IMG/VR virus record: IMGVR_UViG_3300044961_000140
Coordinates: 1-29,953 of that record
DNA: 29,953 nucleotides
Strand: one strand, 5' to 3'
Source of the DNA: a virus
Below, in pieces: positions 1 through 29,713 of the stretch. The position numbers and the translations under genes were made by a program. Below the pieces are notes generated by a model that did not search any database, had not been told where the DNA came from, and worked only from the letters and a program-made list of their open reading frames with translations. The number at the start of each line of letters is the position of its first letter. Position 1 is the first letter of the stretch.

Positions 1-213
1 CGGCAGCAACGAGAACACCAACGGCCTGATCCGCCGATACCTACCCAAGGGCATGGACCTGTCCACCGTCAGTCAGTACACGCTGAACCGGATCGCCGGC
101 CTACTCAACGGTCGACCCCGAAAAACCATCGACTGGCGAACCCCGAACGAGGCGCTCGCCGAGGAAATCGCCATCTTCAAGAAAAGTGTTGCACTTGACT
201 CTTGAGACCACCA
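1..213 (+). mobile_element. IS30-family insertion sequence, 3' end (partial)
   Basis: The window opens inside an insertion sequence. Its transposase reads rightward and stops at 203-205. The element appears to end a few bases later, about 206-215, where a minus-strand phage reading frame that starts at 265 is interrupted. The bases around 188-212 probably form the terminal inverted repeat, because IS30-family ends usually lie just past the transposase stop. The other end lies outside the window, so neither the inverted repeat nor a target duplication can be confirmed. Confidence 0.75.
2..205 (+). CDS. IS30-family transposase, C-terminal fragment
   Basis: The last 67 residues of a DDE transposase are visible; the start lies left of the window. 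The fragment opens with GSNENTNGLIRRYLPKG, the signature of the IS30 C-terminal catalytic block, whose NEN glutamate is probably the third acidic catalytic residue. It continues with LSTVSQYTLNRIAGLLN, GRPRKTIDW and TPNEALAEE, all typical of IS30-family C-termini. The protein would cut and join the element ends as a DNA transposase. It is unrelated in orientation and function to the leftward phage genes beside it and marks a later insertion into the prophage. Nothing in the visible part is broken; whether the gene is whole depends on sequence outside the window. Confidence 0.92.
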   Translation, partial: GSNENTNGLIRRYLPKGMDLSTVSQYTLNRIAGLLNGRPRKTIDWRTPNEALAEEIAIFKKSVALDS

Positions 214-267: not shown

Positions 268-597
268 TCATTCTCCATAACTCATGTTGCGGCCAAGGAT
301 CGCCCGATACCGGTAGTAGGTGCGGCGGCTGATGCCGAACCGCCGGCAGACCTGACGCGGCGTGGCGCCGTCTGCGATCGCATCGAGGATTTCCGAGACG
401 CGGGCGTGGGCGTCGACGCTCGGCACGTAGACCTGAGTGCCTTGGCGCACGTCGGCCAACGCTCGGAGCACAGTGTCGACGTGTCGCCGCACGTCCTCCG
501 GGTGAGCCAGGTGGTCGAGCATCTCGCAGACGCGGTCGGTGACGTCGTCGGCGAGCTGGCTGTACCGCGCGCGGGCGCGGAGGTTTCCAAGACTCAT
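268..597 (-). CDS. Mor/C-like transcription activator
   Basis: This 109-residue protein starts at ATG 597, overlapping the large-terminase stop in an ATGA junction. The N-terminal half (about residues 1-55) is helical and acidic. It is followed by VYVPS, then a C-terminal helix-turn-helix, DGATPRQVCRRFGISRRTYY, at about residues 78-97. This layout (helical dimerisation part, a YIPK-like strand, C-terminal HTH) matches the Mor/C family that activates middle and late promoters in Mu-like phages. In lambda-like prophages Mor relatives also occur near packaging genes. It could switch on the late operon, but no binding site was identified. An alternative is an unrelated small HTH protein. Confidence 0.6.
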   Translation of the reverse strand: MSLGNLRARARYSQLADDVTDRVCEMLDHLAHPEDVRRHVDTVLRALADVRQGTQVYVPSVDAHARVSEILDAIADGATPRQVCRRFGISRRTYYRYRAILGRNMSYGE

Positions 598-2501
598 AGC
601 TTGCCGCTCCATTCGGGCCTGGCGAAAGGACTCGTCGCGGGGAGCCGCGGGCTTGCTGCCGGCGGCGCGGATGGCTGGTGCGGGGCATCGATGGGCGCAG
701 CCTTGGGATCGGCATCGGCGATGCGGCGCTCGAGCAGATCCCAATCCGCGCGGCTGTTGCGATGCCAGCGCAGCTCGGGATGGTGCGTGGCGGCGTAGGC
801 GTAGACCCAAGTGTCCAGCGGTTCGTTGCGGGCCCCGCGGCGCAGCGTGAAGCGGTTCTTGGCCGGGTCGAAGGTCTCGGATGTGATGCCCGCGAAGAAC
901 GCCGGCTCCAGCTCATCGGGGAAGTGGACCATCCGATCCTCGGGCGCTCGATCGGCGTCGGCTGAGAGACGCCCGTAGAGCGTGTGCTTGATCGCGACAG
1001 TTCCGACCTGGTAGAGCTGGACGCCGCGCTTGTCGGTGCGGCCGCGCCAGTTGACATCGACCAGCTTCGGCTTGCCCAGGGCCGGCGCAGTGTTGGCCAC
1101 GGCGCCGTGCACGGCCATCGGCCGGCGCACGGTGGCGCGGCGCACCCAGGACTTGACTGCCTCGCCGCGATGGCCGCCGGTGTCGATGGCGACGGCAGCG
1201 GGCAGCAGCAGCGCGCCGGATTCGTGCTCGATCGGCCGCAGCAGGAAGTCGTCCAGGGCGGTCCAGACCTTGGGCTGGTCCGGATCGCCGGGCAGCGAGA
1301 CGTAATCGAGCGTCCAGGCCGCAAGGCCGCGCCCCCATCCGACCACGTGCGCCTCGAGGCGGTCGTCCTGGGTGTCGATCCCGACGGTGACGCCGAGCAC
1401 GCCACGCGGCGCGGTGCGGAGACGGTACGGCTCTGCGCGTTCGCGGACGATGTTGGTCTTGACCGCGCGCATGGCCGGGTCTTCCCACGGCTCGGCCAGC
1501 CGCTCGGTCACGAACACGCGCAGCTTCGGCGGATCGTTTGCGGCCTCCCGGAACTCGGCCACCAGGTCTCGCCAGCGCGGACCCATGCCGATGTTGTGGT
1601 AGAGCGCGTTCCACGTGTAACCGCGGACGCCCGGCTCCGGCGCCGCGTTCTCGGCGCGCCACTCGACGCCGGCCAACATCGCGGGCTTGGCGCGCTCGTC
1701 GATCTCCGCTCCGCAGTCGCGGCAGACGTAGACGACGTGCCGGGCATCATCGCTCCACGTGAGCCCGGCCCAGATCAGCGGCTGCCGGGAGCCGCAGTGT
1801 GGGCATGCCAGATAGGCTCGACGCTGGTCGGAGCGTGCCCACTTGCTTTCGAGGCGCGAGATGCCCTTGATGCCCGGCGAGCCGGTGAAGAGACGCTTGT
1901 AGGAGCTCGGGAACGCCGTGTTGCGGCCCTCGAACATCTTGACGATGTCCTCGCCGGTGGGCATTTGCGTCGGGAACTTGTCGAGCTCATCGACCCACAG
2001 GTTCATCACCGACTTGAGCGCAGCGCGACCCAGGTTTCCGCCGTGCTCCAGGAACAGCAGCCCGCCGGCAAAGTCCTTGTGGCCTTTGGTGTTGGTGGCG
2101 CTGCGCGAGTTGGCCACACCGGACAGCGCGGCGGCAGCCACTGGAGAATGCGTCAGCATGGGGTCGAGCTTTTGGGCGCGGAAGCTCTCGATGAGCTGCT
2201 CGGTGGGCTGAACGACCATGGTCGGGCCTGGCGCGTGGTCCATGATGTAGAGCAGCCAGTTCAGGCCCACGTCCGTCTTGCCGTACTGGATGGGCGCCAC
2301 GACGACGACCTCGCGCACGCCGTTACGCCGCGTCAGCGCGTCCATGGGCTCGACGAGCAGCGGGTTGCGGTCGTTTCGCCATGCGCCTGGGTAGGCGCTT
2401 TGGGAGCTGGCCAGCACGCGATGCGCGGCGGCGTGCTGCGAGACGGTCATCACCCGCTGCGGGCGGACGGCGCGCGCGGCGGTTTCGAGCAGGGGCATCA
2501 T
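594..2501 (-). CDS. terminase large subunit (GpA family)
   Basis: This 635-residue ATPase/nuclease packages DNA into the prohead. The ATPase part carries VVVVAPIQYGKTDVG at about 65-79, a GpA-type Walker A variant, and LWVDELDKF at about 168-176 as Walker B. A zinc-binding insert follows with CPHCG (233-237) and CRDCG (260-264). The nuclease part has VGIDTQDDRLEAHVVGWGRG near 373-392 and AIDTGGHRGEAV near 438-449, giving the acidic metal-binding residues. Length is normal for lambda gpA relatives. The start was set at 2501 because it overlaps the small-subunit stop as ATGATG; longer versions would run over the small-subunit coding region. The stop overlaps the Mor-like start. It appears intact. 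Confidence 0.95.
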   Translation of the reverse strand: MMPLLETAARAVRPQRVMTVSQHAAAHRVLASSQSAYPGAWRNDRNPLLVEPMDALTRRNGVREVVVVAPIQYGKTDVGLNWLLYIMDHAPGPTMVVQPTEQLIESFRAQKLDPMLTHSPVAAAALSGVANSRSATNTKGHKDFAGGLLFLEHGGNLGRAALKSVMNLWVDELDKFPTQMPTGEDIVKMFEGRNTAFPSSYKRLFTGSPGIKGISRLESKWARSDQRRAYLACPHCGSRQPLIWAGLTWSDDARHVVYVCRDCGAEIDERAKPAMLAGVEWRAENAAPEPGVRGYTWNALYHNIGMGPRWRDLVAEFREAANDPPKLRVFVTERLAEPWEDPAMRAVKTNIVRERAEPYRLRTAPRGVLGVTVGIDTQDDRLEAHVVGWGRGLAAWTLDYVSLPGDPDQPKVWTALDDFLLRPIEHESGALLLPAAVAIDTGGHRGEAVKSWVRRATVRRPMAVHGAVANTAPALGKPKLVDVNWRGRTDKRGVQLYQVGTVAIKHTLYGRLSADADRAPEDRMVHFPDELEPAFFAGITSETFDPAKNRFTLRRGARNEPLDTWVYAYAATHHPELRWHRNSRADWDLLERRIADADPKAAPIDAPHQPSAPPAASPRLPATSPFARPEWSGKL

Positions 2502-3085
2502 GCGCTCGGGTCCTTCGCCATGCCGTGCAGCGCGCGTGCCAGCGCCTCGCGCAGCAGCGTGTGCTCTTCGTGGATGATCGCGCGGCGCGCGTCCTCGCCC
2601 ATCTCCGGCGAGATCCGCTGCGCGATGGTGTCGCCGCAAGTCTCGAGGCCTTGGGCGAACTGCAGGACGATGAGCCGCACCTGGGCGGCGACCGCATCGA
2701 TCGCGATCAGCCTTCCGAGGCTGACCTCGAGGTCACGCTCTGCGGCCAGTGCCCTGGCGCGCTCGGCCCGGGCCCGCCACTGCTGGTAGTCGATGGAGCC
2801 GGGCACGTCGTCAGGCGCTTCGTCCCGCAACTCTCGGCCTGCTGTGCCAGTCTCAGCCGCTGGTCCATGCTGGCGCGCCGCGGCGTGACGCTCGGCCACC
2901 GCCGCGCGGGAAGGGTCCATCGTGTCGCGGATGCGCTGGACGCTCGCCGCCACGTCGACCAACCGCTGCGCCTGGTCGGCAAAGACCAGCCGGCCGTCAC
3001 GCGCGAGCTGCGTGACGTAGCTCGGCCGCCAGCCTTGCAGGCGAGCGAACTGAGCGCGCGTGGCGGTGGCCGGCGTGTCGCTCAT
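2498..3085 (-). CDS. terminase small subunit (Nu1-like)
   Basis: This 195-residue protein lies directly upstream of the large terminase subunit and is coupled to it by overlapping stop and start codons, as is usual for the packaging pair. Residues 8-32 (TRAQFARLQGWRPSYVTQLA and following) form a winged helix-turn-helix like the DNA-binding end of lambda Nu1, which recognises cos. A long helical region follows, with EQ/AR-rich segments around 115-190 that probably oligomerise and bind the large subunit. The start ATG at 3085 overlaps the stop of the preceding gene. It should recognise the packaging site and load the large subunit. Sequence similarity in this family is low, so the call rests on HTH, length and position. 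Confidence 0.85.
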   Translation of the reverse strand: MSDTPATATRAQFARLQGWRPSYVTQLARDGRLVFADQAQRLVDVAASVQRIRDTMDPSRAAVAERHAAARQHGPAAETGTAGRELRDEAPDDVPGSIDYQQWRARAERARALAAERDLEVSLGRLIAIDAVAAQVRLIVLQFAQGLETCGDTIAQRISPEMGEDARRAIIHEEHTLLREALARALHGMAKDPSA

Positions 3086-12993: not shown

Positions 12994-13334
12994 CAGGCGG
13001 GCCGCTCGGAGTCGAGGTCCATGGCCACCCGATCCACGCTCGACGCGACGCGCCGGACACGCCCCGCGAACACGACCACGCCAGCGCGGTCGTACAGCGT
13101 CGCACGCGCGCCCAGCGGCGGCTCGGCCACGAGCTCGGCGGCATCGCGCAGCAGGCTGACGGACAGCGTGGGCACCGGCGGCGGGTCGACTCCCTGCGAG
13201 AGACTGCCGGAGATCGCGCCGACGCCCGCCAGCACCGCCACACGCGGCAAGGCCGCGTCCGCATAGCTCGGCGCGTCGGCGCCGGGCTCCACGGCCTGCC
13301 ACGGGCCGCGCGGATCGTCGACGCGGAGCATCAT
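12993..13334 (-). CDS. small tail tip protein
   Basis: This 113-residue protein starts at ATG 13334, the first of two adjacent ATGs that overlap the stop of the upstream gene. The sequence alternates short hydrophobic strands (PRVAVLAGVGAISGSLSQG, PTLSVSLLRDAAELVAEP, GARATLYDRAGVVVFAGRV), consistent with a compact beta-barrel like small baseplate proteins. It sits between two larger tail proteins, coupled to both. No family is assigned. Confidence 0.7.
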   Translation of the reverse strand: MMLRVDDPRGPWQAVEPGADAPSYADAALPRVAVLAGVGAISGSLSQGVDPPPVPTLSVSLLRDAAELVAEPPLGARATLYDRAGVVVFAGRVRRVASSVDRVAMDLDSERPA

Positions 13335-16300
13335 GCGGCAGCCTCGAGCTGGAGCCGCACGCTGTACCGACCCAGCGCGGCGTCGGACGGCTGCCATCCT
13401 CGAAGGTCGGACACGTCCAGCGCATCCGCACCCACGCGCACGATGCTCGGAATGCTGCCGATCACCACCGCCAGACGGCCTTGATCGATCTCGGTCGCGT
13501 GTGACAGACCATCGAGCAGCGCGTCCAGCGATTGCGCGGTCAGCCCCACATGCTGCACCTCAGCGCCGACCATGCGGCGGCGGCCTTGAGTCGGCAGCAG
13601 GTATTGCGCGGTGGCGACGCCGCTCGCAGGTCGCCCGTTGGCGTGCTCGAGCACCAGCGGCACGCCAAGCCAGACGTGCCCGATCTCGCAGGCGGCTGAG
13701 ACGATCAAGCGCCAGTGTGCCGCCGTGACCGCAGCGGGCAGCGTGTGCACGATGTGCGCGGCCCGCCATGTCACCGGCTGATTGTAAGTCAGCACCGCGA
13801 AATCGGACGTCGCCGAGGCCTGCAGCGTGATCGTCGCCGCAGACGGGATCGCGTGATCGCTGATCGCGAGATGCGTGACCGGGCCGGGCGTGGCAGGCGA
13901 CAGCGTCAGCGTGCAGGCAGCCGATGTGCGCATGCGCCCCGCGATCGGGCGCCGGACTTGCTGCGGGCCGTTGACAGCCAACGCACGGAACGTCCAGGAA
14001 TCGCCTGACAGGAAGCTCGGCGCTTCGCCGGGAACCCACGCGACGGACAAGCCGTCAGCCAGCGCGGCATCGGAGCCGATCTGACGGGGTGCCGACCACG
14101 CGCCGCCGTCGCGCCGCCAGCGCCAGCGGCCACCTTCGATCTCGAAGCGGAAGCGGTCGCCCAGCGCGTAGGGCACACCGCCGAGCGACAGGTTGAACGC
14201 CAGTCCGCCGCCCGAGTACGGCGCCGGCGCGGTACGGTCGATCACATGATCGGGCAGGCCGCCGTCGACGCTGCCGACCACAGTCCACGTCAGCAGATCA
14301 TCGCCGGTTTGCCCGCCGCCGAAGGCCACCGGCGTCGAGCGGATCACGTCCACGGTGATCTTGTCGCCCAGCACGTAGGTCTTACCGCCAGACTGGCCTT
14401 GGCCGGCCTCGATCAACAGCGTGAAGCTGTCGCCGGGCACCGCATCGCAGGCCTGGATGCCGAAGCCGAACTCCTGGGCATCCTCGATGGTCTCCTCGCC
14501 GGTCGGGCTGAAAAACCGCCGGACCGAGTGGTAGTAGTGGCCGGTGAAGGCCGGGAGCAGGGTCGGGTCATCCGGGACCCACCACTGCGCAGAACCTGGG
14601 TCACGCCAGCACCGCGATCCTTGTGGGCTGGCTTCAGCGAAAGGGTCGAGGCCTGCTGCGGCAAAGGCCGGGCCGAACAGGCCCGAGAGGCTGTCGATGT
14701 ACTGGGTGACGTTCGGCACAACCGCTGCGCCAAACGACTCGATCGTTGCCGCCTCCAGGCGCCAGGTGACGCTGCCATCCGTGACCTCGCGCCCGATCGC
14801 GCGCTGCGCGGCATCCCCGACACGCGGGAACCAGCTCGGCTCGGTCGCACCGGTCGTGCCGCCCGTCACAGCGCGCGCCACGACCCCAAAGCCCAGGGCG
14901 CGCACCGTGCCGCGTGGGACGGACGTGGATGGCGTCCAGTAGCGCGGCAGCGCCATCCACGTGACCTGATTGTCCACCACGGTCGCGTAGTCAGTGGTCG
15001 GCCAAGACGGCTCGGATGCGCCGCTCAGGGCGCTGGCCGTCACGCGCACATAGAGGCGACCATTGGCCGTGGTCGGCGCGACCGCGTCCGCGTTTGTCAC
15101 CGAAGCGCGCCACAGCTCGGCGGACGCGGCGCGCGTCGCGCGCTCAAACTGTGCCCACTCGCCCTCGACGCGCTCGAGCAGATCATCCAGCTCCGTGCCG
15201 ACATCGCGGCTGGCGCAGACCCAGGTCACGCCGCCGTCGACCACCGTGGCGCCGATCGTCGTCGGCCAGGTCGGCTCGGTCGCGCCGGTCGTCGCCGGGG
15301 AGAGACCGTCGTAGCGGTAGAGCCGGCCGTTCGGGGTCGTCGGCCGTCGGATGCCGTTGGGCTGGACCTGCTGGCTCGCCGCCCACGCCTGCGCCAGCGG
15401 CGTGCCGGCATCAATCCGGCGAAGCTGCTGGGCGATGTAGGCGCCGACGTCGTTGACGGATCGCATCAGGACGTCGCCGTCGACAGCGCCGCCGCGGCGG
15501 GATGCCATCCGAGAGCGCCACGCGGCGACCCGTTCCAGCCGGCGCTGTAGCACCGGGTGCATGTTCACTGACACACCTCCTTCGGGCTCGAGCCCGAGAC
15601 ACTCAAACGACGGGCCGCCCTCGATGGGCTGCTCGGTGCAGTCGCACTCGGGCGATGGGCGAACGCGCAGGGTCCACGTGATCGCGCGGGAGCGCGCGCG
15701 GGCCCCGAGCTGCAGGCGAGCGAGATGGATGCACGGCTCCGGCGCCGGCGGGGTGCGCGGAAGCGGCGAGACCGTGTAGCTGATGCGCGCATTGACGCTC
15801 GGCGGGCCGGCCAGCTGCGAAGGCACCTGGAAGCTGCCGACCGGGTGCTGATACAGGGCGCCGGTGATCGCCGCCGGCAGCAGCCCGGATTGCGTGCCTT
15901 CAACGCGCCAGCGCTCCTGGCCAGGGCGCGTGTCGTCGATGCAGGTGATCGTGATCGACTCCGTCGGCGCGGCGGTGCTCGGCTCGTAGCCGATCTCCGC
16001 GCGCTGCACGAATGCGCTACCGGTGCGCTGCTCCGCGACCACGAAAGGCGCGGTGCGATCCCACACGTCCAGCGTTGCCATGCCAAGCGGCGAGCGGTCC
16101 ACGATGACCGGATCAACCGGCGAGACCAAGCCACTCGGGTCCGCCTGCATCGCCGTCAGCGCGTCGTAGACGCTGGTCACGCCGGCGTAGGTGCGAGTCG
16201 TGGTCCCGTCGGTGACGCTGACGGTGTAAGTGCCGCTGACGGTGTAGACCGGTGTGCCAGCCGGGATCGCACGGACCGGCGCCGGCGAGAGGTTGTAGCC

Positions 16301-16912
16301 CCAGCGATTGCCGAGCCAGCGACGCCAGGCGCGATAGACCACCGGGTCGCGCCCGAAGCGCAAGCGCGGCGCTGTGGCGGGTACTTGTCCGTCGGCGGTC
16401 AGCGAGGGACCGCCAAAGTCATACGCCTCGCCCTCGAGGTCGACCGCCTGTGCGGGAATGGCGCGCGTGGCCGAGTATTCCGCGGGGACCGACACCAGCC
16501 CGGAGTCGTCCACCGAGATGCGGATGCCATTGCCTGGGTCACCGGGAGCGACTGCGACGAGCCGGACGCCGCAGAAGCGGCCGACCGCAAAGCGCGTCTC
16601 GGTGCCCAGATCCACGCAGGTGACCGTGATCACCTGGGGCACCAGCGCGCCGGGGTCGATGTCGGTCAGAGTGCCGTTGCCGACGCCGGTGAACACCGGC
16701 TGCGACACCCGCGGCGCGCCGCCGGCGTCGAGGTCGACGACCTCGACCTCGATCACGGTGTCCGCTTGGCCGGTGTAGGGCCCGGTCAGATCCAGCGACC
16801 CGCCGCCGCTCACCTGCTCCGACACCCGCGCGATGGCGTCGGACGGCACCATGTTGGTGACGCTGACGGACGCTTCGCGCGCGAGGTTCAGGCTGTTCGG
16901 AAGATAGATCAT
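13331..16912 (-). CDS. large tail protein with repeated W-rich modules
   Basis: This 1193-residue protein starts at ATG 16912, overlapping the tape-measure stop. The N-terminal 450 residues are beta-rich with many short repeats of V/T strands (GTYTVSVTDGTTTRTYAGVT). A cysteine cluster, ECDCTEQP and FECLGLEPEG, lies near 425-450. A helical segment with repeated R residues follows at 465-505. Three copies of a GATEPTWPTT-type module occupy about 504-719. The C-terminal 450 residues again look beta-rich, with GGRWRWRRDGGAWSAPRQIG near 930. Its size, and its place directly after the tape measure, suit a central tail-tip or side-fibre protein. I see no gpJ signature. Confidence 0.75.
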   Translation of the reverse strand: MIYLPNSLNLAREASVSVTNMVPSDAIARVSEQVSGGGSLDLTGPYTGQADTVIEVEVVDLDAGGAPRVSQPVFTGVGNGTLTDIDPGALVPQVITVTCVDLGTETRFAVGRFCGVRLVAVAPGDPGNGIRISVDDSGLVSVPAEYSATRAIPAQAVDLEGEAYDFGGPSLTADGQVPATAPRLRFGRDPVVYRAWRRWLGNRWGYNLSPAPVRAIPAGTPVYTVSGTYTVSVTDGTTTRTYAGVTSVYDALTAMQADPSGLVSPVDPVIVDRSPLGMATLDVWDRTAPFVVAEQRTGSAFVQRAEIGYEPSTAAPTESITITCIDDTRPGQERWRVEGTQSGLLPAAITGALYQHPVGSFQVPSQLAGPPSVNARISYTVSPLPRTPPAPEPCIHLARLQLGARARSRAITWTLRVRPSPECDCTEQPIEGGPSFECLGLEPEGGVSVNMHPVLQRRLERVAAWRSRMASRRGGAVDGDVLMRSVNDVGAYIAQQLRRIDAGTPLAQAWAASQQVQPNGIRRPTTPNGRLYRYDGLSPATTGATEPTWPTTIGATVVDGGVTWVCASRDVGTELDDLLERVEGEWAQFERATRAASAELWRASVTNADAVAPTTANGRLYVRVTASALSGASEPSWPTTDYATVVDNQVTWMALPRYWTPSTSVPRGTVRALGFGVVARAVTGGTTGATEPSWFPRVGDAAQRAIGREVTDGSVTWRLEAATIESFGAAVVPNVTQYIDSLSGLFGPAFAAAGLDPFAEASPQGSRCWRDPGSAQWWVPDDPTLLPAFTGHYYHSVRRFFSPTGEETIEDAQEFGFGIQACDAVPGDSFTLLIEAGQGQSGGKTYVLGDKITVDVIRSTPVAFGGGQTGDDLLTWTVVGSVDGGLPDHVIDRTAPAPYSGGGLAFNLSLGGVPYALGDRFRFEIEGGRWRWRRDGGAWSAPRQIGSDAALADGLSVAWVPGEAPSFLSGDSWTFRALAVNGPQQVRRPIAGRMRTSAACTLTLSPATPGPVTHLAISDHAIPSAATITLQASATSDFAVLTYNQPVTWRAAHIVHTLPAAVTAAHWRLIVSAACEIGHVWLGVPLVLEHANGRPASGVATAQYLLPTQGRRRMVGAEVQHVGLTAQSLDALLDGLSHATEIDQGRLAVVIGSIPSIVRVGADALDVSDLRGWQPSDAALGRYSVRLQLEAAA
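14755..15400 (-). repeat. three copies of a W-rich surface module inside the large tail protein
   Basis: Three segments share the pattern G-A-T/S-E-P-S/T-W followed by a VVD or VTD loop and V-T-W. Their core motifs are GATEPTWPTTIGATVVDG (about 15225-15290), GASEPSWPTTDYATVVDN (about 14950-15030) and GATEPSWFPRVGDA followed by VTDGSVTWRL (about 14765-14870). They are protein-level repeats, diverged at the DNA level. Comparable modules decorate many phage virion proteins. Confidence 0.75.
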
Positions 16913-25310: not shown

Positions 25311-25664
25311 TTAGGCGACCGTCGAGAAGAATGGGTTGAGGATGACCTCGACAGTGGCGTCACCGGACGCAGCGCCAGACGCGGCGATCGCCGCGTTGCT
25401 GAGGTTGCCGGTCGTCGCGCCGCTGGTCTTGAGGTTGCCGGCGGTGTGGTCCCAGATCAGCTTGACGCCCGCGTTGATGGCACCGGATGCCTTCGGCAAC
25501 CGCACGCGACCGACGATCAGCGCGGCGCCCGTATTGCCGTTCGCCACAGCGTCGGTCGCCACGCCGAGCACCGAGCCGATCACGACGCCCTGGCCGCTGG
25601 CCACATTGCCGGAAGCGGTAAACTGCAGCGCGCGACCCTCGTTGATGAAGTTGTTCACTGGCAT
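25311..25664 (-). CDS. capsid decoration protein (DUF2190-like)
   Basis: This 117-residue protein starts at ATG 25664 behind a strong CAGGAG site. It begins MPVNNFINEGRALQFTASGN and continues VASGQGVVIGSVLGVATDAV, then ALIVGRVRLPKASGAINAGV and LIWDHTAGNLKT. These are hallmarks of the small beta-barrel DUF2190 family that decorates and stabilises capsids, trimming a viral shell as lambda gpD does. It lies immediately after the capsid gene, as expected. Intact and normal length. Confidence 0.85.
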   Translation of the reverse strand: MPVNNFINEGRALQFTASGNVASGQGVVIGSVLGVATDAVANGNTGAALIVGRVRLPKASGAINAGVKLIWDHTAGNLKTSGATTGNLSNAAIAASGAASGDATVEVILNPFFSTVA

Positions 25665-25718: not shown

Positions 25719-27119
25719 TCAGGCGCCGGCGTTGGTGACGCAGCCGAGCCACGAGACCGCGCCGACGCCCCAGGCGTGCTCGATCTTCCACTCGCGCGCG
25801 GAGCTCCGGAAGTTGGTCTCCTCGGTCACCGTCGGCGACTGGCGACCCTCGACGAAGGCGACCTCGATCACCGGGTGCGTCGCCGGATCAGCGAACATGT
25901 ACCAGCGCGTGCCGCTGAGACGCGGCGTGTCGACGATGTCGCGCAACATGTTGGCGGCGATGTTGAACCGCTGCAGCTTGTTGTTCGCGTCCGGGTCGTA
26001 GGTGCTGTTGTTGACGACGCGCGCAGCGCCACCCACCGACAGCGGGCCGACAAAGATCGCCGGAGCGGCGTCGATGAAGTCGGCACCCTCGCCGGCGACG
26101 CGTTGTGCCAGCATCAGCTGGCGCGCGGCATCGAAGCTGGCGACGCTGGGGGCCGCCGCCGTGCCGGCGATGTTGCCGTGCGTCGAGTGGAACAGCGGGT
26201 TGCCGTCCGACATGTTCGGTCCGACGCCGCCGCCGATGGCCAGCAGCGCGTAGACGGCATCCTCGATCGTGCGGCCGGCAGCGATGCCGAGCGCGGTGGC
26301 CGCGTCGAGGATCGCCCCAAGGTCGTCGTTGACGATTAGCTCCGGCGACACCGACAGAATGGACCCGCGACGCTGGCCGGTAATGGTCTCGCGGCGGCCG
26401 TCGGACAGCGACCGGTTGTTGTACTCGGCGTGCGGGCCGGCAGGCGGCTGCAGATTGCCGATCGACCCGAACTGGTAACGGCCGTGCGGCCGGTAGTCGT
26501 TCAGCGTGCCGACGCGGCAGAACCGGTTCCAGGTGAACGGCGCCGACTGGTAGCCGAACAGCACGGTCTTGTTGAGCGTGTTCTCGAGCAGGACCGGGAA
26601 ATCGCCCGGGCTTTGCAGAGCCTTCACCGCGATCTCGCTGCGCGACATCGACGCGGTGTTGACGCCGGCGCGCTTGAGGCTGAGCTCCGCGAGCTCGCTG
26701 ATGCGGCTGTTGGCGAACGGATTGCCAGACAGCGCGGCGGTCCGCGCCTCGCCCTTCACGATGTTGTAGCGCGCGAGCAGCGCGGACGACTGAGCCTCGA
26801 TGCGCAGGTCCCGCTCATCGCGGCCGGCAGTTGCGCTGCCGATGGAGCCGCCGAGCGGCGTCGCGCGCGAGCCCAGCGTCTTGAGCGCCGCGGCGTAGAA
26901 GTCGTCGACCGAGCGGCTCACGTCCGCGAGGTAGGCATCGCCCAGCGCCTTGATGTCGTCGTGGCCAGGGAACTGGCCGACCATCTCCGTGATGCGCGCG
27001 TTGCGCTCCTTGAGCTTTGCCAGGACGGCCGGCTCGTCGTTGACTGGATGGCCGGCCGGCGCCGCCTGGTTGAGATTCGTGGCCGGCGTGGCGGCGGCGT
27101 TCGTGACGGGATCATTCAT
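25719..27119 (-). CDS. possible internal product: major capsid protein
   Basis: ATG 27119 (residue 794 of the fusion) follows AGGAG by eight bases, as good a ribosome site as those of the independent late genes. It would give a 466-residue protein starting MNDPVTNAAATPATNLNQAA. Residues up to about 110 are charged and helical (AKLKERNARITEMVGQF), like a capsid delta domain or scaffold. The rest contains HK97-fold-like capsid sequence including IVNDDLGAILDAATALG. Virions need hundreds of capsid subunits for twelve portals, so separate initiation here makes sense. Confidence 0.65.
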   Translation of the reverse strand: MNDPVTNAAATPATNLNQAAPAGHPVNDEPAVLAKLKERNARITEMVGQFPGHDDIKALGDAYLADVSRSVDDFYAAALKTLGSRATPLGGSIGSATAGRDERDLRIEAQSSALLARYNIVKGEARTAALSGNPFANSRISELAELSLKRAGVNTASMSRSEIAVKALQSPGDFPVLLENTLNKTVLFGYQSAPFTWNRFCRVGTLNDYRPHGRYQFGSIGNLQPPAGPHAEYNNRSLSDGRRETITGQRRGSILSVSPELIVNDDLGAILDAATALGIAAGRTIEDAVYALLAIGGGVGPNMSDGNPLFHSTHGNIAGTAAAPSVASFDAARQLMLAQRVAGEGADFIDAAPAIFVGPLSVGGAARVVNNSTYDPDANNKLQRFNIAANMLRDIVDTPRLSGTRWYMFADPATHPVIEVAFVEGRQSPTVTEETNFRSSAREWKIEHAWGVGAVSWLGCVTNAGA

Positions 27120-27923
27120 TTCGGGGTCTCCTGACGTGTGGCGGATAGCGGCTCGCGCTGCAGCGGGGATGAGACGCAGCACGTCCGGTCGAGCGGCTGC
27201 GGTGATGCGGGTCTTGAGCAGCGACGCGACCGGCGCGGGCGCTCGCGCCAGTGCAGCGGTGTAAGAAAGCAGCGCGGAGGCCGCGGCAGCGTCGTCTTGC
27301 GCCTCGCGCGACGGGTCGATCACACGGTCGGCAAAGCCCAGCGCCAGCGCTTCTTCGGCCGTGTAGTAGTGGTCCTTGCCGTCACTGAGCAGCTCCAGAA
27401 TGAAGTCTTCGCTCTTGCCGCTCTTGCGCGCGTAGTCGGCGACCATCGTCAGCGCGTACTTGTCGAGCACGTCCGCAGCCTCACGCAGCTGCACGGCGTT
27501 GCCGGCGGCGTAGCTCCACGGGGCGTGGATCATCAGCAGGCTGTTGGCCGGCATCTCGACTTCATCGCCCGCCATCGCGATCAGCGACGCGATCGATCCG
27601 GCGATGCCGTCGACGGTGACGATCTTGCGCGCGGGATGTCGCCGCAAAGCGTTCGCGATGGCGATACCGTCGGAGACGGAGCCGCCGATGCTGTTGATGC
27701 GCACGCGAATCGTCGAGGCGTTGAGCGTCTGCAGCTGCTCTGCCACTCGACGCGCCTCGACGGTTTCCTCAAGCCACGATTCGCCGATGGGGCCGTAGAT
27801 CAGCAGCTCGGCTTCACTGGCCCCAATCGCGCGCACCTCCAGCTTGGCGAGCCCAGGCGCAGCGGGATGGCCTGGTGTCGGCATCGCGCTGGCACGAATG
27901 CGGTTCAGCACTTTCGGTCGCAT
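25719..27923 (-). CDS. possible internal product: protease-capsid protein
   Basis: ATG 27923 (residue 526 of the fusion) is preceded by GGGAG five bases upstream. It would give a 734-residue protease-capsid protein starting MRPKVLNRIRASAMPTPG, just before the ClpP-like domain. The codon context suits independent initiation, which would provide protease without portal. Whether it is used is inference from the sequence alone. Confidence 0.45.
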   Translation of the reverse strand: MRPKVLNRIRASAMPTPGHPAAPGLAKLEVRAIGASEAELLIYGPIGESWLEETVEARRVAEQLQTLNASTIRVRINSIGGSVSDGIAIANALRRHPARKIVTVDGIAGSIASLIAMAGDEVEMPANSLLMIHAPWSYAAGNAVQLREAADVLDKYALTMVADYARKSGKSEDFILELLSDGKDHYYTAEEALALGFADRVIDPSREAQDDAAAASALLSYTAALARAPAPVASLLKTRITAAARPDVLRLIPAAARAAIRHTSGDPEMNDPVTNAAATPATNLNQAAPAGHPVNDEPAVLAKLKERNARITEMVGQFPGHDDIKALGDAYLADVSRSVDDFYAAALKTLGSRATPLGGSIGSATAGRDERDLRIEAQSSALLARYNIVKGEARTAALSGNPFANSRISELAELSLKRAGVNTASMSRSEIAVKALQSPGDFPVLLENTLNKTVLFGYQSAPFTWNRFCRVGTLNDYRPHGRYQFGSIGNLQPPAGPHAEYNNRSLSDGRRETITGQRRGSILSVSPELIVNDDLGAILDAATALGIAAGRTIEDAVYALLAIGGGVGPNMSDGNPLFHSTHGNIAGTAAAPSVASFDAARQLMLAQRVAGEGADFIDAAPAIFVGPLSVGGAARVVNNSTYDPDANNKLQRFNIAANMLRDIVDTPRLSGTRWYMFADPATHPVIEVAFVEGRQSPTVTEETNFRSSAREWKIEHAWGVGAVSWLGCVTNAGA

Positions 27924-29498
27924 GGAGTCTCCCATCGGGTTGCGAACGGCGGCGCGCGGGGGCGCTGCATCGTCTTTGGTGTCGTCGTCTGGCACCGGAA
28001 GATCCTGCGGCGCTGGCGAGGCAGCGTCCGCCCGATCCGGTATCCCCCACTCGCGCTTTTCCTCGATCCATTTCGCTTCCTGGTCGAGCACGTCGCGCGG
28101 GTTGGCGCCGCGGCGGCGGATGATCTCCGGGCCAGACATGTAGCAGTTCCGCTCCATGACCTCGAAGGCGTTAGCCTCGCGCAGCGGATCGATCCATGGC
28201 ATCTGCGGCGCCGCGAACCAGGCGTCCTGCGCCATCTCCAGCGTGACGCCGGCGGGCAGCCGCAGCTGGCCGGACATCACAGCCGCGCGCACAAAGCTCT
28301 CGTACGTGGGCTTCACGAACTGCGAAATGAACTCGGCGGCGAGCACGCCGTAGGCGCCCCAGCCTTCGACCAGCTCTTGGCGCTGCGCCGAGTAGGTGCC
28401 GTCGTACGTGCGCGCGAGGCTCGAATAGGTCAGGCGCAGGCCCGCCGCAGCGGCGCGCAGCTGTCCGGAGCGATACGCCTCGAGGTTCGTGTTCGGTCGG
28501 TTGGTGTCGATCGTCTCGACGCGTTCGCCGGCCACCAAATCGTCGAACACCATTCCTGGCTGGAAGTGCATCTGGCGCGGCGCCCTGGCGGCGTTCTCGG
28601 TCCACATCGCGGGCTCGCCCTTGATGATGACCGCCGCCATGCTGGCCGCGATCTTCGCGGCCACGCGCTCGGATTCCTCATAGTCCTTAAGGTCGTCCAG
28701 GCGAGTCATCACGCTGGACAGGATCGACACCCCGCGCAACTGCCCGAGGCGGCGCACGAGCTTCAAATGCCGCATCTGCGTGGCGTCCACGCGCTTGAGG
28801 TTCGGCATCAGCACGCCAGGCTCGCCGGGGTGCTGCATGTAGACGTAGTACCCGACGACGCGGTTCCAGTTGTTGCGCTGAATGCCTTGGAGGATGTTCT
28901 GCCCGGCGCTGTCGTAGTCGAGCGGCACAAGGTCCGCCTCGAGCAGCTCGATCGAGTACGGCACCGTGGTGCCGTGATCGAGCGCGATCACCGGGCCGAT
29001 CAGGTCTTGGACGAAGATCTCACCATCGCGGAGCCAGCTCAGCGCCGCGATGCGCTGCGCGGCATCCCACGAGTGGGACCACGTCACCTCCGGCCGGCGA
29101 GCCCAGTTGGCCCACAGCGTGCTGATCTTTTCGGCCAGCTGCGGGTCGACATCGCCGATGGTGTTGCGCGGCTGCGGCTCGACGGCAATACCCTTCGGTC
29201 CGACGATGTTCTGGACCAGCGTGTCCAGTGCACCGACCACGATGTCGTGGTTGCGGTCGTGGTGACGCGCCTGACTGCGCACTTGCACAGCCGACGCATC
29301 GACCGCGGCGTTGCCGCTGCCGTAGTTCCTGGCTTGCTTGCGCAGCCTGGTGGGCTCTGCGGCTTCGTACGCGCGCGACATCGCGAGCGCACGGAGGCGC
29401 GATTGCGCCCGGCGCTCGGCCCACTGCGGAGAGAGCCAGAGCGCAGCGCGCTCGATCGGCTCGATCACGCGCTGCACCAGCGGGCGCGGTCTGCTCAC
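25719..29498 (-). CDS. portal - ClpP-like protease - major capsid fusion
   Basis: One uninterrupted 1259-residue frame begins at GTG 29498, overlapping the gpW stop, and ends at 25719. Residues 1-~520 are a lambda-type portal (NYGSGNAAVDASAVQVRSQA; LQGIQRNNWNRVVGYYVYMQ). Residues ~530-760 are a ClpP-like prohead protease with INSIGGSVSDGIAIANAL, catalytic S635 in GIAGSIAS, H658 in LLMIHAPW and D709 in GKDHYYTAEEA. Residues 794-1259 are a capsid protein with a helical N-terminal delta-like region and DGNPLFHSTHGNIAG. There is no stop between them. Protease-capsid fusions are known; joining the portal too is less usual. Internal ribosome sites precede M526 and M794. Confidence 0.85.
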   Translation of the reverse strand: MSRPRPLVQRVIEPIERAALWLSPQWAERRAQSRLRALAMSRAYEAAEPTRLRKQARNYGSGNAAVDASAVQVRSQARHHDRNHDIVVGALDTLVQNIVGPKGIAVEPQPRNTIGDVDPQLAEKISTLWANWARRPEVTWSHSWDAAQRIAALSWLRDGEIFVQDLIGPVIALDHGTTVPYSIELLEADLVPLDYDSAGQNILQGIQRNNWNRVVGYYVYMQHPGEPGVLMPNLKRVDATQMRHLKLVRRLGQLRGVSILSSVMTRLDDLKDYEESERVAAKIAASMAAVIIKGEPAMWTENAARAPRQMHFQPGMVFDDLVAGERVETIDTNRPNTNLEAYRSGQLRAAAAGLRLTYSSLARTYDGTYSAQRQELVEGWGAYGVLAAEFISQFVKPTYESFVRAAVMSGQLRLPAGVTLEMAQDAWFAAPQMPWIDPLREANAFEVMERNCYMSGPEIIRRRGANPRDVLDQEAKWIEEKREWGIPDRADAASPAPQDLPVPDDDTKDDAAPPRAAVRNPMGDSMRPKVLNRIRASAMPTPGHPAAPGLAKLEVRAIGASEAELLIYGPIGESWLEETVEARRVAEQLQTLNASTIRVRINSIGGSVSDGIAIANALRRHPARKIVTVDGIAGSIASLIAMAGDEVEMPANSLLMIHAPWSYAAGNAVQLREAADVLDKYALTMVADYARKSGKSEDFILELLSDGKDHYYTAEEALALGFADRVIDPSREAQDDAAAASALLSYTAALARAPAPVASLLKTRITAAARPDVLRLIPAAARAAIRHTSGDPEMNDPVTNAAATPATNLNQAAPAGHPVNDEPAVLAKLKERNARITEMVGQFPGHDDIKALGDAYLADVSRSVDDFYAAALKTLGSRATPLGGSIGSATAGRDERDLRIEAQSSALLARYNIVKGEARTAALSGNPFANSRISELAELSLKRAGVNTASMSRSEIAVKALQSPGDFPVLLENTLNKTVLFGYQSAPFTWNRFCRVGTLNDYRPHGRYQFGSIGNLQPPAGPHAEYNNRSLSDGRRETITGQRRGSILSVSPELIVNDDLGAILDAATALGIAAGRTIEDAVYALLAIGGGVGPNMSDGNPLFHSTHGNIAGTAAAPSVASFDAARQLMLAQRVAGEGADFIDAAPAIFVGPLSVGGAARVVNNSTYDPDANNKLQRFNIAANMLRDIVDTPRLSGTRWYMFADPATHPVIEVAFVEGRQSPTVTEETNFRSSAREWKIEHAWGVGAVSWLGCVTNAGA
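27117..27132 (-). promoter_or_regulatory. internal ribosome binding site for the capsid protein
   Basis: The minus strand reads AGGAG (27128-27132), eight bases, then ATG (27117-27119), all inside the long fusion frame. The site decides whether free capsid protein is made. It lies in a linker between protease and capsid domains, where a start codon would leave both domains whole. Confidence 0.65.
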
Positions 29499-29713
29499 GA
29501 GAACACCGCCAGCGCGGCGCCGCCCGGGCGGCCGGCCTGCGCGTCCACCTCCGCGCGCGCGCGGCGCTCCCACATCATGCGCCCGCGCCGGATCTCCGCG
29601 AGGTCGGGGAGCGAAAGACTGCGGCCCGCAATCTGGAACGACTGGCCGGCCAGGATCGCCGCCTCGGCGTCCTGGTACAGCTGGGCCATCTGCTGCGCGG
29701 TGCGGCTGAGCAT
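29495..29713 (-). CDS. head completion protein (gpW-like)
   Basis: This 72-residue protein starts at ATG 29713 with a weak GAG ribosome site. It begins MLSRTAQQMAQLYQDAEAAI, then GQSFQIAGRSLSLPDLAEIR, ending in a basic tail. Helix, short beta hairpin with the F-x-I-x-G-R-S motif, and second helix (DLAEIRRGRMMWERRARAE) match lambda gpW, which binds below the portal and readies the head for tail joining. It immediately precedes the portal and overlaps it by four bases. Confidence 0.85.
   Translation of the reverse strand: MLSRTAQQMAQLYQDAEAAILAGQSFQIAGRSLSLPDLAEIRRGRMMWERRARAEVDAQAGRPGGAALAVFS

Follow-up and report, generated by a model that had tools for sequence, protein, structure and literature searches.

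The fusion of a lambda-type portal, a ClpP-like protease and a major capsid protein in one reading frame is, as judged from sequence, real and recurring. We analysed a stretch of 29,953 nucleotides (positions 1–29,953 of IMG/VR virus record IMGVR_UViG_3300044961_000140; hereafter the window), in which this frame lies on the minus strand. In the reading that we consider rather probable, it comprises three C-coterminal nested genes with one frame and one stop, and the portal is released by the embedded protease. The likely products would be chains of 1259, 734 and 466 aa with a common C-terminus, like those of lambda C/Nu3. The features concerned, in order of transcription, are:

29495–29713, minus strand: gpW-like head–tail adaptor, its TGA overlapping the portal GTG (GTGA) (phrog_118, E = 4e-18; sequence)
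25719–29498, minus strand: fused ORF of portal, ClpP-like protease, scaffold and major capsid protein, 1259 aa, GTG start (sequence, Pfam, NCBIfam, fused relatives)
27936–29498, minus strand: portal domain with C-terminal tail, residues 1–521 (PF05136 at 52–383, TIGR01539 at 55–487)
27928–27933, minus strand: GGGAGA, predicted Shine–Dalgarno (SD) for internal initiation at the protease (duplex energy −7.3 kcal/mol, ranking second among the 28 in-frame ATGs; the relative L001 has one too)
27921–27923, minus strand: internal in-frame ATG, M526, of a putative 734-aa protease–scaffold–capsid product (SD and ATG here in all fused relatives, weak in L347)
27315–27812, minus strand: ClpP-like protease domain, residues 563–728, triad S635/H658/D709 (Pfam, NCBIfam, structure comparison)
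27127–27132, minus strand: predicted SD AGGAGA of the internal scaffold–capsid start (−7.4 kcal/mol, best of the 28; a family-wide signal)
27117–27119, minus strand: internal in-frame ATG, M794, of a putative 466-aa scaffold–capsid product (most open of the 28; border of protease extension and scaffold in the model)
26823–27119, minus strand: scaffold (delta-like) helical segment, residues 794 to about 892 (AlphaFold model)
25731–26609, minus strand: major capsid domain, residues 964–1256 (PF25209, E = 1e-44)
25311–25664, minus strand: head decoration protein (lambda D-like), the next gene of the operon (phrog_122, E = 2e-18)

The frame runs from the GTG at 29498 to 25719, that is, 1259 codons and a stop, without an internal stop. 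It continues open 5′ of the GTG, up to 29762; we take this GTG as the natural start because it overlaps the TGA of the gpW-like head–tail gene (29713–29495). As a preliminary description of this DNA had proposed, portal, protease and capsid share this single open frame, with Pfam matches to Phage_portal_2 (residues 52–383, E = 3e-81), CLP_protease (582–728, E = 5e-25) and Phage_capsid_4 (964–1256, E = 1e-44). Its assignment of the portal to the lambda type is borne out by TIGR01539 (portal_lambda), which scores 329.5 bits over residues 55–487 against a curated cut-off of 172.7; residues 181–506 also match the solved phage portal 8gtd. NF045540 (protease/MCP fusion) reaches 488.0 bits over residues 563–1256 against a curated cut-off of 475, and the match to Clp_rel_HeadMat (NF045542) likewise exceeds its curated cut-off. 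Aligned with ClpP proteins of known structure, the protease has S635, H658 and D709 in the catalytic Ser, His and Asp positions, confirming the full triad described earlier; its model superposes on ClpP folds across 171 columns (about 2.4 Å). The AlphaFold model of the protease–capsid part was usable (mean pLDDT 71) and places the scaffold helices at about residues 823–877, between low-confidence linkers at 792–823 and 879–892. For the portal, the portal-plus-protease model was of low quality (mean pLDDT 43; 5 sequences) and hence unreliable, and we did not use it there.

Relatives with the same domain order, for which the preliminary description had advised a search, were found in L001, a separate IMG/VR record, and in six further contigs. 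L001 carries the same fusion in 1257 codons, with many substitutions and in-frame indels relative to the window, and is 97–98% identical to it over protease–capsid and 95% over portal–protease. Together with the window there are eight fused contigs (L001, L025, L177, L178, L179, L041 and L347), and all eight are metagenomic contigs. L347, truncated by the end of its contig, is continuous from the portal across the protease into the capsid domain; L177, L178 and L179 are 88, 81 and 81% identical to L025, and all come from different metagenomes. Errors of sequencing or assembly that delete a stop or change the frame have precedents in this family: the portal tails of L002 and L003 differ by one base, and L260 looked fused but proved to be frameshifted in its portal tail, so that we excluded it from the survey as an artefact. 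However, the fusion occurs in eight distinct contigs, and the window and L001 keep the frame despite many differing sites. Recurrence in other contigs effectively refutes assembly error, and we attach almost no probability to an artefact.

To place the fusion in its family, we surveyed relatives of the query from viral and genome collections, deduplicated and with complete portal and protease domains (222 loci). Portal and protease lay in different frames in 183 of the 222, in the same frame with a stop between them in 31 and fused in 8. On a maximum-likelihood tree of 100 loci, drawn without L177–L179 and L347, the fused state required 3 changes, at least 2 of which were forced by well-supported branches. 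The preliminary description had set against its own proposal the case that relatives always carry stops in this region. They do not: most have separate genes, and the fused contigs appear to form about three lineages, at least two and probably three. A scan of genome contigs with a single-protein query gave no match, and an alignment-based scan of genome contigs gave 80 relatives, 0 of them fused. Among named phage records (the best 40 in one search and 60 of 77 in another), no single feature spanned the annotated portal and protease.

In close relatives, the portal–protease junction is commonly ATGA, with the protease SD within the last portal codons. The protease–capsid gene begins 29 nt before the portal stop in F10 and 83 nt before it in Fels-1, in a different frame in both phages. 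In the fused phages, the portal and protease frames coincide and the stop is absent, while the protease SD and ATG are retained despite differing linker residues and lengths:

window: GGGAGACTCCATG
L001: GGGGGAACCAATG
L025: GGAGACCAACATG
L178: GGAGAACCCCATG
L179: GGAGAATGCGATG
L041: GAGGTCATTACGATG

The protease SD of L347 is weak (−3.3). L025, L177 and L179 retain the ATGA letters of the former overlap, with TGA in the +1 frame. Owing to the kept SD and ATG, the missing stop and these ATGA remnants, we conclude that a shift of frame or the loss of a stop in the portal tail, which evolves fast, probably gave rise to the fusion; the event would have removed the stop and kept the protease's own ribosome-binding site. 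Unfused portal tails are weakly constrained, with 49% of differences at third codon positions versus 79% in the remaining portal. Between the window and L001, 1 of the 7 differences in the portal–protease linker falls at a third codon position, a small number of differences that agrees with relaxed constraint. In the near-identical L002 and L003, one homopolymer base in the portal tail toggles between the ATGA overlap and the same-frame arrangement with a stop.

The same drift could have produced a neutral or mildly harmful stop loss, whereby the portal tail came by drift to share the protease frame and the phage tolerates an extension that has no function of its own. In-frame neighbours with a stop are common (31/222), portal tails evolve fast and the fused lineages are few. 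On the other hand, four L025-type contigs, about 81–88% identical to L025 and from different metagenomes, all keep the fusion without a stop, and so do the window and L001; we consider such a functionless loss unlikely. Free portal might also arise if ribosomes changed frame within the portal tail and reached a stop close by, and the ATGA with its +1 TGA in L025, L177 and L179 speaks in favour of this. In the window, L001, L178 and L041, however, the first +1 and −1 stops lie at differing places, mostly beyond the protease start, and no shared stop or slippery site was seen in the fused contigs, leaving frameshifting very improbable.

For each of the 28 in-frame ATGs of the fused ORF, we predicted how strongly the SD region pairs with the 16S tail and how stably the mRNA folds locally. 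SD pairing is strongest at M794 (−7.4) and M526 (−7.3), with the third-ranked ATG at −4.1. The same two ATGs are the most open, with folding energies of −2.9 and −10.2 kcal/mol, respectively, versus a median of −16. Both stand at domain borders: M526 lies just before the protease and M794 just before the scaffold, at the start of the low-confidence linker that leads from the helical extension of the protease to the scaffold helices in the AlphaFold model. M794 thereby has the hallmarks of a lambda C/Nu3-like start, namely an internal in-frame start with a ribosome-binding site at the scaffold border. Strong folding is predicted at the portal start (−24.0), which would suit a coupled start of low yield.

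These signals alter the earlier proposal that self-cleavage by the embedded protease must release the parts. Both borders have an in-frame ATG, a strong SD and open mRNA; therefore, protease–capsid and scaffold–capsid chains can be made directly, and the capsid is probably not tied one-to-one to the portal. Of the claim that every full chain ties the portal to one capsid subunit, the continuous frame stands, whereas the one-to-one tie probably does not, given the start signals at M526 and M794. The other option raised there, that the full chain is a minor product, fits better than obligatory self-cleavage.

Phage heads hold about 12 portal subunits versus several hundred capsid subunits. In a true polyprotein, the 1259-aa chain would be the sole product, cut by the protease into portal, protease, scaffold and capsid, and portal would equal capsid in number. 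The continuous frame, the intact protease and the lack of conventional separate genes are what such a polyprotein would predict, but it accounts neither for the pair of internal ribosome-binding sites that are strongest and most open nor for a scaffold–capsid start that is found family-wide. We regard it as decidedly unlikely.

That scaffold–capsid start was examined in 112 non-redundant protease–capsid ORFs, 88% of which have an in-frame ATG with an SD of −5.5 kcal/mol or stronger in the protease–scaffold linker; as a control, out-of-frame ATGs of these linkers reach −5.5 in 5.8%. The SD is encoded via different residues in different phages (KE, GE/GD, EE/ED, QE, GA) and is therefore a nucleotide signal. 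The ATG with the strongest SD of the entire ORF falls within the linker in 78 of 112 cases (expected share, 14%), and in 108 of 112 the mRNA is less folded at the linker start than at the remaining ATGs of that ORF (mean difference, 6.8 kcal/mol); the 112 loci are related, so p-values for these comparisons overstate independence. Codon shuffling within the linker weakened the mean SD from the observed −6.7 to −3.1. Synonymous shuffling weakened it to −5.0 and was mostly non-significant (median per-locus p of 0.375). Synonymous shuffles lower the SD less because Glu, Lys and Gly codons themselves tend to spell an SD, and in a single sequence the choice of residues can hardly be told apart from the SD.

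A second fusion type (NF045541; phage S1 gp8, PBb001) shares the capsid family with the window and has an SD and ATG at the same protease–scaffold border, in Bordetella phage PBb001 (L335) and Stenotrophomonas phage S1 (L336). It differs in its protease (a weak S78 match in PBb001 and none in S1) and in having a separate portal gene. The comparison suggests that the nested start either predates the type of protease or does not depend on it. The internal SD and ATG in nearly all protease–capsid fusion genes, those of F10 (L014) and Fels-1 (L015) included, probably mark a widely unannotated second product. The conserved internal start suggests that protease–capsid genes, usually annotated as one product, make at least two; if so, the two products would settle the stoichiometry problem in a lambda-like manner and change the annotation of many prophages.

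Under the nested-gene reading that we prefer, ribosomes starting at the portal GTG, which overlaps the gpW stop, would make few 1259-aa portal–protease–scaffold–capsid chains. Those starting at M526 would make the 734-aa protease–scaffold–capsid chain and those at M794 the 466-aa scaffold–capsid chain, the latter in bulk. Owing to the internal starts, few portals and hundreds of capsids could arise without equal cleavage; the few portal-bearing chains would supply the 12 portal subunits, and free portal would then be the only product requiring proteolysis. As no stop follows the portal, free portal needs processing, unless the phage tolerates or exploits the extension. The most likely source of free portal is the embedded ClpP-like protease, which would liberate it in the prohead while also removing the scaffold; the released protease–capsid part may enter the shell. 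The preliminary description had pointed to the linkers as places to look for conserved cleavage sites; they are too variable to show one, and in our comparison among relatives no conserved cut site was visible in the portal–protease linker. This result, the relaxed constraint of that linker between the window and L001, the weak protease SD of L347 and the SD strength that survives synonymous shuffling weigh against the nested-gene reading.

Were the fusion left uncut, the portal would stay joined to the protease–capsid part, and full chains would form the portal ring and seed the shell at the portal vertex. Portal incorporation and shell nucleation would thereby be linked; several lineages have kept the fusion, and linker indels leave its frame intact. 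Yet the protease in the chain looks active, a single vertex would have to hold twelve fused capsid domains at close quarters and the linker is weakly constrained; we regard an uncut fusion as improbable. In a further variant, which we consider rather unlikely, the portal is made only as the N-terminal part of the fused chain; still uncut, this chain brings capsid and protease to the portal vertex, nucleates the prohead at that site and undergoes cleavage only at maturation, and the two internal starts supply the rest of the protease–capsid and scaffold–capsid. If such seeding by uncut chains is real, the limit of one portal per shell would be coupled directly to translation.

Protease–capsid fusions are established, as had been stated in the first account of this locus, both by the family NF045540 and by gp5 of Pseudomonas phage MD8 (PMC8508860). 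In the NF045540 fusions (Pseudomonas phages F10 and MD8 gp5; Salmonella phage Fels-1), as in the window, protease, scaffold and capsid form one gene, which stands behind a lambda-family portal and gpW. In these phages a separate portal gene overlaps the protease gene in another frame, whereas in the window the portal is joined in frame. The usual arrangement of a stand-alone protease–capsid gene after a separate portal, which is outside the protein-family definition, is thus not that of the window. In lambda, the scaffold (Nu3) is initiated in frame inside gene C, which encodes the protease. Its portal (B) and capsid (E) are separate genes, whereas in the window the capsid belongs to the nested product and the portal to the outermost one (for the C/Nu3 overlap, see Shaw and Murialdo 1980, as cited in PMC8508860). 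Microbacterium and other actinobacteriophages have portal–MuF and protease–scaffold–capsid fusions (PMC7302621), in which normally separate structural genes are likewise joined, with different partners; no portal–protease–capsid fusion is described there. In the open-access literature (subscription papers fell outside the search), we found no description of a portal–protease–capsid fusion or of an internal scaffold–capsid start in protease–capsid genes. Within that literature, the joining of a portal to the known protease–capsid fusion is a new arrangement. How a head acquires one portal is a long-standing question, for which a portal translated joined to protease and capsid is a natural test system.

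Elsewhere in the window, a 1193-aa tail-region protein (13331–16912, minus strand) has two short matches to phrog_20658, a head-decoration family, and no Pfam match. At the start of the record, a C-terminal fragment of an IS30-family transposase (2–205, plus strand) matches NF033563 (E = 1e-14), under the whole-model cut-off. A lambda-type large terminase (594–2639, minus strand) is encoded towards one end of the record, with gpW and the portal at the other; L001 has no terminase-size long ORF just upstream of the portal either. The order of terminase, gpW and portal would be ordinary if the record were circular.
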